This document shows positions 50,167 to 57,949 of a stretch of 64,000 bases of DNA, piece by piece. Under the pieces are notes generated by a model. The model saw only the letters and a program-made list of their open reading frames with translations. It was not told the origin of the DNA and made no database searches. A program made the translations under genes and the position numbers. Origin of the DNA: Methylocystis sp. Sn-Cys (lineage in GTDB: Bacteria > Pseudomonadota > Alphaproteobacteria > Rhizobiales > Beijerinckiaceae); NCBI RefSeq assembly GCF_016745395.1, contig NZ_JAERVJ010000008.1, positions 1 to 64,000 on the forward strand, written 5' to 3'. The first letter of the stretch is position 1; each line of letters opens with the position of its first letter.

Positions 50167-50493
50167 ATGGATAACGGCATTAACGACGACAAACCGCAGC
50201 AGCTTCCCGATAATCTCCCCATCGGACTGATGTTCGATCCGATGGAGCAGATGCGCGAGCTGCTCTTCGGCGCCACGAAGCGAGAGACCGAGCGTCAATT
50301 CAACATTCTGGAAGCCAAGTTGGAAGAGACGCGTAGGGAATTCCTGACGCGCTTCGAAGAACTCGACTCCCGTATCCTGGAACTGTCTCAGGAGACCGAG
50401 AAAAACCGGCTGGAGACGATAGAGGCCATCGGCGGCGCGATCGTCGAATTGGGCTACATCATCAAGGCGATGAGCGAGAAGCGGAAGGCTTGA
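50167..50493 (+). CDS. small coiled-coil protein of the Rab-like GTPase module
   Basis: The 108-residue protein has a short polar start (MDNGINDDKPQQLPDN) and a long amphipathic helix from about residue 30 to 80 predicted as coiled coil. Its LLFGATKRETERQFNILEAK segment resembles the LLLGETVRRLDETDARLD segment at the start of the next protein, which suggests shared ancestry or a hetero coiled coil. No signal peptide, so it is cytoplasmic. It starts the three-gene unit, four bases before the OmpA-domain gene. Function unknown; an adaptor role is inference. Confidence 0.85.
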   Translation: MDNGINDDKPQQLPDNLPIGLMFDPMEQMRELLFGATKRETERQFNILEAKLEETRREFLTRFEELDSRILELSQETEKNRLETIEAIGGAIVELGYIIKAMSEKRKA

Positions 50494-50497
50494 CGCG

Positions 50498-52096
50498 ATG
50501 TCTGCGCCAAGTGGGATCGAGGCCTTCGAGAAAGTAAAGTCGCTTTTACTTGGAGAGACCGTCCGTCGCCTCGACGAGACAGACGCACGTCTCGACAGGA
50601 TCGACGCGCGCGTCGGAGACGAGGAGAAATTCGCCATTTCGTCAGGCGACGTCATGGTCGAGGCGTTCAAGCGCGCGGAACATAAACGCCCGCGTGACCT
50701 TACCGCCGCGCTGGCGCCTTCGGTCGTCTCGATCGTCCGCGCCGAGATTCGCAGCTCCAAGGATATGATGATCGAGGCCTTGTACCCGATCATGGGCCGT
50801 CTCGTGACGGTGACCGTCGCCAGCGCTTTCCGTGACCTCGTCGAGAGCCTCAACGCGCGCATCGAAGCGCTCATTTCCGCGAACTCGTGGCGTATGCGGC
50901 TGCGCGCTCTGCTGACCGGCCGCTCGATGGCCGAAGTCGCGCTCGCCGAAGCCGAGGCAGGCCGTTTGAAGCGCGCGCTGCTGCTCGAGCGGGGCAGCGG
51001 CCGCCTGCTCGCGATATGGCCGGCGGAAGAAAACGGAGAGGCCGGCAACGCCGATCTGCAAAGCGGGCTGATTGCCGCCATCACCGAATTCGCCGCGAAT
51101 GTTTACGCCTATCGAGGCGGCGAATTGCGCATGCTCGACATCGGCTCGGGCATCGTGTTCTTGCGCGCCTCTCCGCGCGTGATCGTGGCGGGCGAATTCG
51201 GCGGCCAATTGTCGCGCCGGATGGAGCGCCGTCTCGACGACACCTTTCTCACGATTGTCGAGCGGCACGAGGCGGACGAAGCTTCCTGCACGTCCACCGC
51301 TTTGGGCGATATGTTGAATGAAGCGCTCGCCGCAGAGAAATCGAGGCGGAGCAAAGCGCCTTTGATGATTTTCAGCGCCGCGCTGGCGTTTCTCGGCGCC
51401 TGGCTCGCCTGGGACTCGATGCTGCACGGATGGCGCGAAAGGCGCATCCGCGAGGCCTATGTCGTGGCGATGGCCGGCCATCCCGCCTTGGGCAAATATC
51501 CGCTCCGTCTCGAGGTCGACCATCAAGCGGAAATCGTCGTTCTGCGCGGGCTCGCCGCTGACGAAACAGAACCTCGGACGCTCGCCGCGGAACTCATCGA
51601 AGCGGCCGAACCCTATCGCGTCGCCAGCGACGTCACCGCGGTTGCGCCTGTCGCGCAGATGGAGGCGCTGCGCGACGCGCTCGGCGAAGCGCACGCGGCC
51701 TTGCAGCGCCTCAAGGCCGAACAGGAAGAGCCGCGCGCCAAGCTCCGGCGTTTCACCGACAGTTTCGCGGTCTTCTTCACAGAGCTCGACACCTTTCTCG
51801 ATCCCGCCGCCGCCGCGGCCGGCCTCGACGAGCTGGCGTCGCTTCTCAAAGCGAGCGGCGAGGGCGTGCGCGTCGTCGGCTATGCCGACGAGGTGGGTAC
51901 GACGGGGCGAAATAGATTCGTTTCGCGCAAGCGCGCCGAGAGGGTCATCGCGATGCTCGTCGAGCGCGGCGTCGCGCGCAACCGTCTCGCGCTCGTTTGG
52001 CGCTCGACATATAATCCCATCGGCGATCCCAATGCGGAGCTGCACAGCCGCCGCGTGTCGTTCGAAATGCCCTTCGCCGGGGAGTTCGCGAAGTGA
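50498..52096 (+). CDS. membrane-anchored protein with roadblock-like cytoplasmic region and periplasmic OmpA domain
   Basis: The 532 residues lack a signal peptide. Order seen: N-terminal helical segment (LLLGETVRRLDETDARLD, 15-32); a helical block with PIMGRLVTVTVASAFRDLVESLNARIE (about 103-129) matching an uncharacterised family known also from cyanobacteria; a region at about 155-265 (LLLERGSGRLLAIW ... LIAAITEFAANVYAY ... LRMLDIGSGIVFLRASPRVIVAGEF) with the rhythm of a roadblock/longin-like sensor; one transmembrane helix (287-306); a BON-like stretch (about 318-380); a short coiled coil; and a C-terminal OmpA peptidoglycan-binding domain (about 415-530, VVGYADEVGTTGRNRFVSRKRAERV). The stop overlaps the GTPase start (GTGA). 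Confidence 0.88.
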   Translation: MSAPSGIEAFEKVKSLLLGETVRRLDETDARLDRIDARVGDEEKFAISSGDVMVEAFKRAEHKRPRDLTAALAPSVVSIVRAEIRSSKDMMIEALYPIMGRLVTVTVASAFRDLVESLNARIEALISANSWRMRLRALLTGRSMAEVALAEAEAGRLKRALLLERGSGRLLAIWPAEENGEAGNADLQSGLIAAITEFAANVYAYRGGELRMLDIGSGIVFLRASPRVIVAGEFGGQLSRRMERRLDDTFLTIVERHEADEASCTSTALGDMLNEALAAEKSRRSKAPLMIFSAALAFLGAWLAWDSMLHGWRERRIREAYVVAMAGHPALGKYPLRLEVDHQAEIVVLRGLAADETEPRTLAAELIEAAEPYRVASDVTAVAPVAQMEALRDALGEAHAALQRLKAEQEEPRAKLRRFTDSFAVFFTELDTFLDPAAAAAGLDELASLLKASGEGVRVVGYADEVGTTGRNRFVSRKRAERVIAMLVERGVARNRLALVWRSTYNPIGDPNAELHSRRVSFEMPFAGEFAK

Positions 52097-52590
52097 TCTC
52101 GGCGAAAGTCATGCTGCTCGGGGACATCGGCGTCGGGAAATCGTCGCTGGCGCGCCGTTTCGTCTTCGATCGCTTCGAGAGCGATTACAAGACGACGATC
52201 GGCGTCGATGTGCTCACGCATGACGTCGCCCTCGGGCCCGACGCCAACCATGAAACCTTACGTTTTGTCTTATGGGATACGGACGGGGATTTCGGCCTGC
52301 GCATTTTCGAGACGGTCTATCTCGCGGGCGCTTCTGCTGCGATCATCGTCGCCGATGCGACGCGGCCGGCGACGCTCGTGAAAATGGCAGGCCTCGCCAC
52401 GCATTTCGAAGAAAGATTTCCCGGCCGCCCGGTGGCGGCGATCGTCAATAAAATCGACCTCGCCCCCGAGCTCGCAAGCGACGCGTCGCCGTCGCGACAC
52501 GACGTCGTTTATACGAGCGCCAAGACGGGGCAGGGGGTGGCGGAGATGTTTCTCTCGCTCGGCCGTGCGATCTGGCGGCGCGCGATGTAG
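52093..52590 (+). CDS. Rab/Ras-like small GTPase
   Basis: The 165-residue P-loop GTPase has all five G motifs: G1 GDIGVGKS (10-17), G2 threonine in KTTIGVD (33-39), G3 WDTDGD (61-66), G4 NKID (119-122) and G5 TSAK (141-144). In G3 the usual WDTAGQ is changed: Ala to Asp and the catalytic Gln to Asp, which may slow hydrolysis. There is no C-terminal prenylation cysteine. GTG start inside the preceding stop (GTGA) implies coupled translation with the OmpA-domain protein, the likely partner or regulator. The role of such bacterial GTPases is unknown. Confidence 0.92.
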   Translation: MISAKVMLLGDIGVGKSSLARRFVFDRFESDYKTTIGVDVLTHDVALGPDANHETLRFVLWDTDGDFGLRIFETVYLAGASAAIIVADATRPATLVKMAGLATHFEERFPGRPVAAIVNKIDLAPELASDASPSRHDVVYTSAKTGQGVAEMFLSLGRAIWRRAM

Positions 52591-52771: not shown

Positions 52772-53581
52772 TCAATTGCCGTTGGCTGGCTTGGAGCCCG
52801 CAGCCGCCTCCGGAACGTCCTTTTGTTGCTTTGCCGCTTCCTTCGCGAGATCGGCTCTGAGCGTCACGATATCGGCGACGAGCCGCTTCTTTCTTTCGTC
52901 GAGCGGCTCCTTGACGATTTTTTGGTAATCATCTTTCGACGCGCCATAGAAGGCGACGCCGAGGCTCGCGACTCTTTTTTCCAGCTCACCGCATTTTATC
53001 TCGATGACTTTCACCAGTGTTTCGGCTGGCTCATTCGATAACGGCACAAGGCTCTTCGACTCCGAGACGAGACAGCTATCGAAGGCGCTCGACGCTTCGC
53101 TCAAAAGCTTCGTGCGTTCGAACTCCACCGCTTTGATCCGATCTTGCGCAACGCTCGCCGCCTCGTCGCCGCGTGGCGCTTGAGCGGCTTGCTCTTTTTC
53201 GACTTGATGGCGTTGCCTTTCGGAGGAGGCGGCTTGGTCGAACAAAGAACGGAGCCCGGGCTGCATGGAAGCATAGGCGGATCGAATGATCGCGTTCGCT
53301 TCGCTACGACCAAAATCGCCACGGAAAAGCGCGTCGCGCGCCAGATCGATGTGATTGCCGCAAGCGGGGCGAAGCGAGCTCTCGATGTGGTCGAAGGTCG
53401 CCGCAGGGTCTTTTTTGGCGGCCTGTCTCAGATATTGCTTGGCGCAGTCGGCATAAGCCGCAAAATGCGGCTTCACCTGCGAGGCGATAAATTGATCCGG
53501 TCCTTGCGCAAAGACGGCGGAGGATGTCGTTACAGAGAAGCAGCAGACGATTCTGGAGAGAACCCGGACGATTTTGCTCAT
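52772..53581 (-). CDS. exported protein of unknown function
   Basis: Not recognised. The 269 residues start with a signal peptide (about 1-25, cleavage after AVFA), then an all-helical, Gln/Lys/Ala-rich mature part with four cysteines (ADCAKQ, RPACGNH, FDSCLV, EIKCGE) that could form two disulfides. The C-terminal third is charged and coiled-coil-like. It is convergent with the GTPase module and separated from it by a repeat. Confidence 0.75.
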   Translation of the reverse strand: MSKIVRVLSRIVCCFSVTTSSAVFAQGPDQFIASQVKPHFAAYADCAKQYLRQAAKKDPAATFDHIESSLRPACGNHIDLARDALFRGDFGRSEANAIIRSAYASMQPGLRSLFDQAASSERQRHQVEKEQAAQAPRGDEAASVAQDRIKAVEFERTKLLSEASSAFDSCLVSESKSLVPLSNEPAETLVKVIEIKCGELEKRVASLGVAFYGASKDDYQKIVKEPLDERKKRLVADIVTLRADLAKEAAKQQKDVPEAAAGSKPANGN

Positions 53582-57295: not shown

Positions 57296-57949
57296 CTACC
57301 GCTCCGACAGCGCCCGTATCGCCAGCTCCGTGCGGCTTCGCAAATGCAGCTTGGCGAGAATGGTCGAGACGTGATTCTTCACCGTGCCTTCCGCGAGGCC
57401 CATTTCGCGCGCGATTTCGCGATTGCCCTTGCCGGCGGCGACGTGGTTGAGGACGTCCTTCTCGCGTTCGGTGAGCGGCTCCTCGTCTTCGAACGATAAT
57501 TTGCTCGGCGTTCTGACGCGGCGAAACTCTGAGAGGATTTTTGTCGCGACGCTGGGCGACAGACGCGGTTCGCCGCGCGCCGCCGCGCGGATGGCGGAGA
57601 GGATTTCGGCCTCTTCGGCGTCCTTCAGCAGATAGCCTTGCGCGCCGGCCGAAACCGCCTCGAAGACAAGCTCGTCGGCGTCGAAGGTCGTGAGCATGAT
57701 GACGCGGATCGACGGCGATTTCGCCAAAATGGCGCGCGTCGCGGCGATGCCGTCCATGCGCGGCATTTTGAGGTCCATCAGGACGACGTCGGGCGCATAG
57801 GCGAGGGCGGCGCTGACCGCCTGCGCGCCGTCCGCCGCCGTGGCGACGACCGCAATATCCTCCTCGAGCGCCAAGAGCGCCGCCAGCGCCTTGCGGATCA
57901 CGCTCTGATCCTCGGCGATCATCAGGCGTATCTGCTTTCCGGCGGTCAA
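57296..57949 (-). CDS. NarL/FixJ-family response regulator
   Basis: The 217 residues comprise a receiver domain (1 to about 125; phosphoacceptor Asp59 in VVLMDLKMP, with acidic pair ED at 13-14 and a conserved Lys in LLKD) and a LuxR-type helix-turn-helix (about 150-212, LTEREKDVLNHVAAGKGNREIAREMGLAEGTVKNHVS). No histidine kinase is nearby, so its partner is elsewhere. A remnant of a close copy lies at 55924-55981. Confidence 0.93.
   Translation of the reverse strand: MTAGKQIRLMIAEDQSVIRKALAALLALEEDIAVVATAADGAQAVSAALAYAPDVVLMDLKMPRMDGIAATRAILAKSPSIRVIMLTTFDADELVFEAVSAGAQGYLLKDAEEAEILSAIRAAARGEPRLSPSVATKILSEFRRVRTPSKLSFEDEEPLTEREKDVLNHVAAGKGNREIAREMGLAEGTVKNHVSTILAKLHLRSRTELAIRALSER

Follow-up and report, generated by a model that had tools for sequence, protein, structure and literature searches.

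What does a small Ras-like GTPase relay when its gene is packed against that of a membrane protein with a peptidoglycan-binding type domain? This question is raised by positions 50167-52590 of a 64,000-nucleotide stretch from the methane-oxidising bacterium Methylocystis sp. Sn-Cys (contig NZ_JAERVJ010000008.1; the whole stretch is called the window below), where genes for a coiled-coil protein, a membrane protein with an OmpA domain (the middle protein) and a Rab-like GTPase follow one another (Table 1). Our answer, to which we give a probability of about 0.6, is that this triple forms the centre of a signalling set of the Group 1 Rup type with five parts, by which envelope state is converted into changes in transcription. 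The fourth and fifth parts would be a histidine kinase and a NarL-type response regulator, a two-component gene switch that the set probably informs about cell-wall state.

The gene set is not new, since the neighbourhood of Group 1 Rup GTPases was described in 2014 by Wuichet and Sogaard-Andersen (PMC4316618, cited throughout for its relevant sections). The triple appears to belong to this type, as judged by the size and motifs of the GTPase, a G3 motif without Gln, the neighbouring genes and the output protein encoded in the genome. As in Group 1 Rup clusters, which are known in alphaproteobacteria and cyanobacteria, a Rab-like single-domain GTPase without the G3 Gln is accompanied by a coiled-coil protein, by a protein composed of a conserved domain, a membrane helix and an OmpA domain, and by a histidine kinase or other output protein. 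The present case differs from that description in the conserved domain, which is called unknown there and has a predicted roadblock fold here, and in the window's genus, where the locus holds a NarL-type regulator and the kinase is encoded elsewhere. When the Rup family was named in 2014, none of its members had been studied experimentally (PMC4316618), and our literature search found no later experimental test. The same search, made over titles and abstract openings with few subscription journals, found nothing that links a roadblock domain to Rup GTPases. Nor did it give a published counterpart for three points added here: the assignment of the conserved domain to the roadblock fold, the unlinked position of the kinase, and the presence of a regulator at the locus.

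The three genes are tightly packed. A 4-base gap separates the coiled-coil open reading frame (ORF) from the middle one, which the GTPase ORF overlaps as GTGA. This three-gene module had been noted in a first-pass annotation made from the letters alone, and both the ORFs and the junction letters confirm it. Homologues of the three genes should then co-occur in other genomes. Among 64 loci fetched from other genomes, which form our comparison set, hidden Markov model (HMM) matches to the middle protein and the GTPase were found together in 52, with the same 4-base overlap in 35 of the 52; the arrangement is therefore not due to chance. The cytoplasmic part of the middle protein was detected in 12 of 61 relatives, with GTPase and coiled-coil ORFs beside it in all 12. 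An HMM of the coiled-coil family, whose seeds include six of the loci L031-L041, matched an ORF upstream of the middle gene in 11/11 stretches from these relatives. The interpretation given in the first-pass annotation thus stood as regards gene co-occurrence and, as shown below, the roadblock/longin fold; it had missed the 2014 description of Group 1 Rup, and its gene list included neither the response regulator nor the unlinked kinase.

An LLxG-type start followed by coiled coil is common to the coiled-coil protein and the N-terminal part of the middle protein (50498-50700). They are possibly related and possibly form a heteromer. Their best mutual match in a 50-sequence set (E 5.9e-6) probably reflects coiled-coil bias, and we do not claim it as homology.

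The GTPase is of the Ras type. All five motifs G1-G5 announced for it are present, though the position of Ras Gln61 is occupied by Asp, a point that had been missed. Alignment with 62 rows from other genomes gave D in 29, N in 25, H in 6 and E in 2 at this position and Gln in none, while the Asp of G3, conserved in GTPases other than MglA (PMC4316618), was kept in 62/62. The best solved relatives by sequence were Rab22, Ypt51 and Rab5, joined by Rab6 when the family profile was used, and the best 60 solved relatives listed were almost all Rabs. Since the G3 Asp is kept throughout and these listed relatives are almost all Rabs, the GTPase is not of the MglA family. Rup GTPases are the prokaryotic group placed closest to eukaryotic Rab/Ras.

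We examined the middle protein with an AlphaFold2 model, whose block-mean predicted local distance difference test (pLDDT) values were 81-95 over residues 131-275. The predicted topology of this region (helix, two strands, helix, three strands, helix) is that of a roadblock domain. Over residues 154-267 it matched solved MglB, Ragulator, archaeal roadblock and Mon1-Ccz1 chains with Foldseek and VIA-align, MglB being the best Foldseek match. The cytoplasmic domain is thus predicted by the model to adopt a roadblock fold, in line with the roadblock/longin region suggested earlier for residues 155-265. The single membrane helix and the OmpA domain of that annotation were equally recovered: hydropathy showed one peak (1.76 at residues 287-305), with no 19-mer above 1.4 starting outside residues 271-319, and the OmpA domain was matched by Pfam. 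Its D464 and R479 are invariant in 12/12 aligned homologues, and we take these positions to be the peptidoglycan contacts of OmpA.

Pfam and NCBIfam scans of the middle protein returned OmpA-type families plus matches likely due to chance, such as PfkB (E 0.0028, below the family cut-off) and GrpE. Residues ~316-434 (51443-51800), which link the membrane helix to the OmpA domain, had no Pfam match and look by eye BON-like, then coiled coil. Two copies of the cytoplasmic domain lie close together in each of two genomes from a single genus of the class (G267:C15:270-4241 and G152:C12:16858-21233).

The fourth component is characterised by a conserved N-terminal domain, predicted to be PAS-like, which from its position is presumably the N-terminal region meant in PMC4316618. 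With an HMM built from 9 loci, we found it in 48 of the 64 loci: downstream of the GTPase on the same strand in 41, nearby on the opposite strand in 5 and upstream in 2. For 13 of the remaining 16 loci, L042, L043, L059 and L097 among them, the domain is encoded at another place in the genome; the genome-wide search covered loci other than L098 and L104. The window contains no fourth gene with this domain (domain HMM, best E 1.1), and the candidate is an unlinked HisKA_3 kinase (Table 1), the start of which was set at an internal ATG. Pfam scans of 10 downstream ORFs identified 5 histidine kinases with the N-terminal domain; the other 5 were a hybrid kinase that lacks it (L101), an ORF of RNase type (L058), two of no family (L049, L055) and one cyclase that has it. 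This last is the fourth gene of a cyanobacterial locus (Symploca, L099:8505-10496) and encodes a PAS-GAF-adenylate/guanylate cyclase, an output type not named in the relevant section of PMC4316618.

As fifth component we propose a protein of 217 amino acids on the opposite strand, predicted from its sequence to be a NarL/FixJ response regulator, with a receiver and a LuxR-type DNA-binding domain. D59, T87 and K109 are invariant in 8 aligned proteins, and presumably play their receiver-domain roles, including that of phospho-acceptor Asp. A homologue directly adjoins the GTPase gene in five relatives (L032, L033, L035, L036 and L037) and lies ~1.6 kb from it in L034 and ~4.9 kb in L031. Regulators of the NarL/LuxR type also adjoin the domain-bearing gene in L044, L048, L049, L050, L055, L056 and L094. 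All 7/7 scanned regulators at these loci have receiver and LuxR domains; the kinases scanned were those of L044 and L055. When 61 genomes were searched for the NarL-type regulator of the set, scores of 294-319 bits were obtained in 8 genus genomes, the next best being 178 bits (G052).

These components were found together across genomes. Of the 37 genus genomes, the same 8 have the middle protein, the kinase domain and the regulator. The kinase domain occurs in 11 of the 61 relatives, all 11 among the 12 with the middle protein. Among 337 genomes of the class, in each of which no more than 7 or 12 candidates were scored so that misses are possible, 9 have the middle domain and 5 the kinase domain, all 5 within the 9. 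We further placed the set on an RpoB tree of 29 genus members and the outgroup G142, which belongs to the window's own family and has the middle domain; the 8 omitted genus members all lack the set. The tree needs 5 changes with G142 coded as lacking the set, 6 with G142 coded as having it, and 4-6 in 40 bootstrap trees. To the extent that a tree of one gene can show it, the set was therefore not inherited as a single block.

Gene order, domains, the predicted roadblock fold and the joint occurrence of the parts were obtained by computation, and from these results the following mechanism can be proposed. The middle protein would span the inner membrane, its OmpA domain holding peptidoglycan, the presumed input. 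The cytoplasmic roadblock-fold domain would serve as a platform binding the neighbouring Rab-like GTPase, the nucleotide state of which would be passed to the PAS-like N-terminal domain of the HisKA_3 kinase. The kinase would be paired with the NarL-type regulator and phosphorylate it, acting on transcription; if so, the set most likely converts envelope state into a transcriptional response, with the signal flowing inwards. We infer each step of signal transfer by analogy with MglA/MglB, with conservons (PMC13343842, relevant part) and with roadblock/longin biology (PMC10933270, relevant part).

Several observations weigh against the envelope-to-gene relay. At the level of the fold, residues 81-130 of the model are of low confidence (block means 51-67), and the model is silent on dimerisation and on GTPase binding. 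A Robl_LC7 sequence match was obtained in only 1 of 50 members (E 0.049). The profile comparison with the roadblock family, proposed with the first-pass annotation as a check, did not bear the fold out: against 24 Robl_LC7 proteins it gave a probability of 0.6%, with two control regions at 0.2 and 0.3%, and strand, helix, strand aligned in seemingly right register. Robl_LC7 was not matched in genome G000 either, and a profile search of the PDB with the domain returned only ferritin and AppA fragments (E 0.11-0.45). In the 50-member scan (best 25 of 63 families) Fuz_longin_1 matched 1 member (E 0.0024) among unrelated families, and the unrelated GvpL_GvpF matched more members (10) than did roadblock or longin families. 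As these sequence-level searches gave no roadblock match, our assignment is drawn from the predicted fold, and with so weak a Robl_LC7 profile match (E 0.049; 0.6%) the domain is filed as roadblock-fold and not as Robl_LC7.

At the level of the genomes, the kinase is unlinked from the triple in 8 genus genomes, and ~10 kb stretches around it in these 8 contain no such regulator. The genome of L091 (G069/G043) has the triple and no detectable kinase domain; 4 of the 9 class genomes (G138, G142, G152 and G258) have the middle domain with no kinase domain detected, and the middle domain found in the L096 and L105 genomes does not lie beside this GTPase. Conversely, L058 and L062 keep the GTPase and a genome-encoded kinase domain with no roadblock part detectable in the genome. 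Weaker regulator matches (157-178 bits) include G038, G050 and G059, all lacking the triple; a weak regulator match therefore means little. Finally, no column of the kinase N-terminal domain alignment (A3, 38 sequences) has Gln in more than 15/38, the helical part of this alignment being uncertain. Upstream of the GTPase in L058 (352-2328) and L062 (3274-5063) the roadblock part is missing, and the upstream ORF of L058 ends OmpA-like by eye.

The main rival, which we consider rather unlikely, is a reverse, conservon-like flow: the PAS domains of the kinase would sense a cytoplasmic cue and set the GTPase via the roadblock domain, and the GTPase would use the OmpA protein to act on the envelope, e.g. 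in positioning or wall synthesis. The conservon kinase is indeed placed upstream of roadblock and GTPase (PMC13343842, relevant part), the present kinase has a second PAS domain, and the GTPase and roadblock genes are the ones that stay together in the window. However, the NarL-type regulator that accompanies the kinase has a DNA-binding domain, and a cyclase takes the position of the kinase in a cyanobacterial locus, both of which look like outputs; PMC4316618 likewise treats the fourth gene as output.

It is unlikely that the roadblock-fold domain acts purely in dimerisation or as a scaffold and leaves the GTPase unregulated, GTPase-activating protein (GAP) function residing in the kinase N-terminal domain, where the 2014 work suggested it from an invariant Gln (PMC4316618). 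The GTPase, lacking the G3 Gln in all 62 aligned rows, would fit such an activity in trans, as would L058 and L062. Yet a universal trans-acting Gln is not seen in the kinase domain alignment, and small GTPases are known to use roadblock and longin proteins as platforms (PMC10933270, relevant part). It is quite improbable that the pair or triple stands alone with another job (e.g. anchoring a polarity complex to the wall), co-occurrence of kinase and regulator reflecting shared transfer or loss of an ancestral block: the unlinked kinase of the genus and the genomes with the middle domain and no detected kinase domain (G043/G069, 4/9 of the class) agree with it, but the kinase is kept in exactly the 8/37 genus genomes with the triple, over ~5 changes on the one-gene tree, and a shared block does not explain why unlinked genes are kept jointly.

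The proposed inward relay resembles several known systems. Like conservons, the actinobacterial G protein system (CvnA-D; Mfp), it unites a histidine kinase, a roadblock protein (here by predicted fold) and a Ras-like GTPase in one set. It differs in that conservon GTPases are of the MglA family, to which the window GTPase does not belong, and, following the relevant section of PMC4316618, in that the conservon roadblock protein is MglB-type and not a membrane helix plus OmpA protein, and the conservon set has no response regulator. A small Ras-like GTPase with a roadblock partner also forms the MglA/MglB polarity switch of Myxococcus, but the GTPase there is of another family and has another G3 motif. 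MglB, itself a roadblock protein, is not known to have membrane or OmpA parts. In eukaryotes, Ragulator-Rag, Mon1-Ccz1-Rab7 and TRAPP-Rab provide roadblock/longin platforms for Rab/Rag GTPases at membranes; the likeness is compared at fold level only, and the present set differs in being bacterial and in having a peptidoglycan-type domain and a two-component output.

We tentatively propose, at somewhat less than even odds, that Rup GTPases have a roadblock partner tethered through the inner membrane to the wall and that the set is a conservon-like relay: it would sense on the outer side, switch on the inner side by a Rab-type GTPase seated on a roadblock platform, and act through a two-component system or a cyclase. 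If true, a roadblock/longin platform for Rab-type GTPases would be common to bacteria, archaea and eukaryotes. This would contradict the published view of Rup proteins as lacking an MglB-like partner: PMC4316618, in its relevant sections, predicts that Rup GTPases do not interact with homologues of MglB and couples 0/121 Rup sequences to MglB in its table. The question bears on the origin of Rab-type GTPases and of the roadblock/longin platforms that carry them, and on ways in which a G protein might link wall state to gene expression in bacteria. Once a kinase, a response regulator and a roadblock partner are assigned to it, the Rup family becomes testable in a cultured methanotroph or Hyphomicrobium.

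Table 1. Features of the triple and proposed partners (window coordinates, except for the kinase).
Feature	Position	Strand	Basis
Coiled-coil cytoplasmic protein, 108 aa, first gene of triple	50167..50493	+	ORF; family HMM match in relatives
Middle protein, 532 aa: N-terminal helices, predicted roadblock-fold domain, membrane helix, OmpA	50498..52096	+	ORF, Pfam, model, hydropathy
Predicted roadblock-fold domain and flanking helices, residues 144-275	50927..51322	+	AlphaFold2 model; Foldseek/VIA-align matches over residues 154-267
Single predicted membrane helix, residues 286-305	51353..51412	+	hydropathy
OmpA domain (peptidoglycan-binding type), residues 437-513	51806..52036	+	Pfam E 2.2e-11
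Rab-like small GTPase, single domain, 165 aa, GTG start, apparent Group 1 Rup type	52093..52590	+	Pfam Ras E 1.2e-21
G3 motif WDTDGD, Asp in place of catalytic Gln	52273..52290	+	sequence; alignment
ORF of 269 aa directly after GTPase, between triple and regulator	52772-53581	-	signal-peptide-like start by eye; no Pfam match
NarL/LuxR-type response regulator, 217 aa, proposed fifth component	57296..57949	-	Response_reg E 2.5e-27, GerE E 4e-19
HisKA_3 histidine kinase: PAS-like domain, PAS, HisKA_3, HATPase	C8:535551-536930	-	domain HMM, Pfam

As for neighbouring genes, five ORFs separate the window regulator from the GTPase, at a distance of 4.7 kb; four of the five have a family (esterase, acetyltransferase, LysE and methyltransferase). 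The ORFs that follow the kinase in Hyphomicrobium-type loci matched a receiver domain only in 5 of the 6 scanned, the remaining one having no family. At other loci the kinase is followed by metabolic genes (L052, L057 and L076) or, in L087, by a protein with receiver and LuxR domain.
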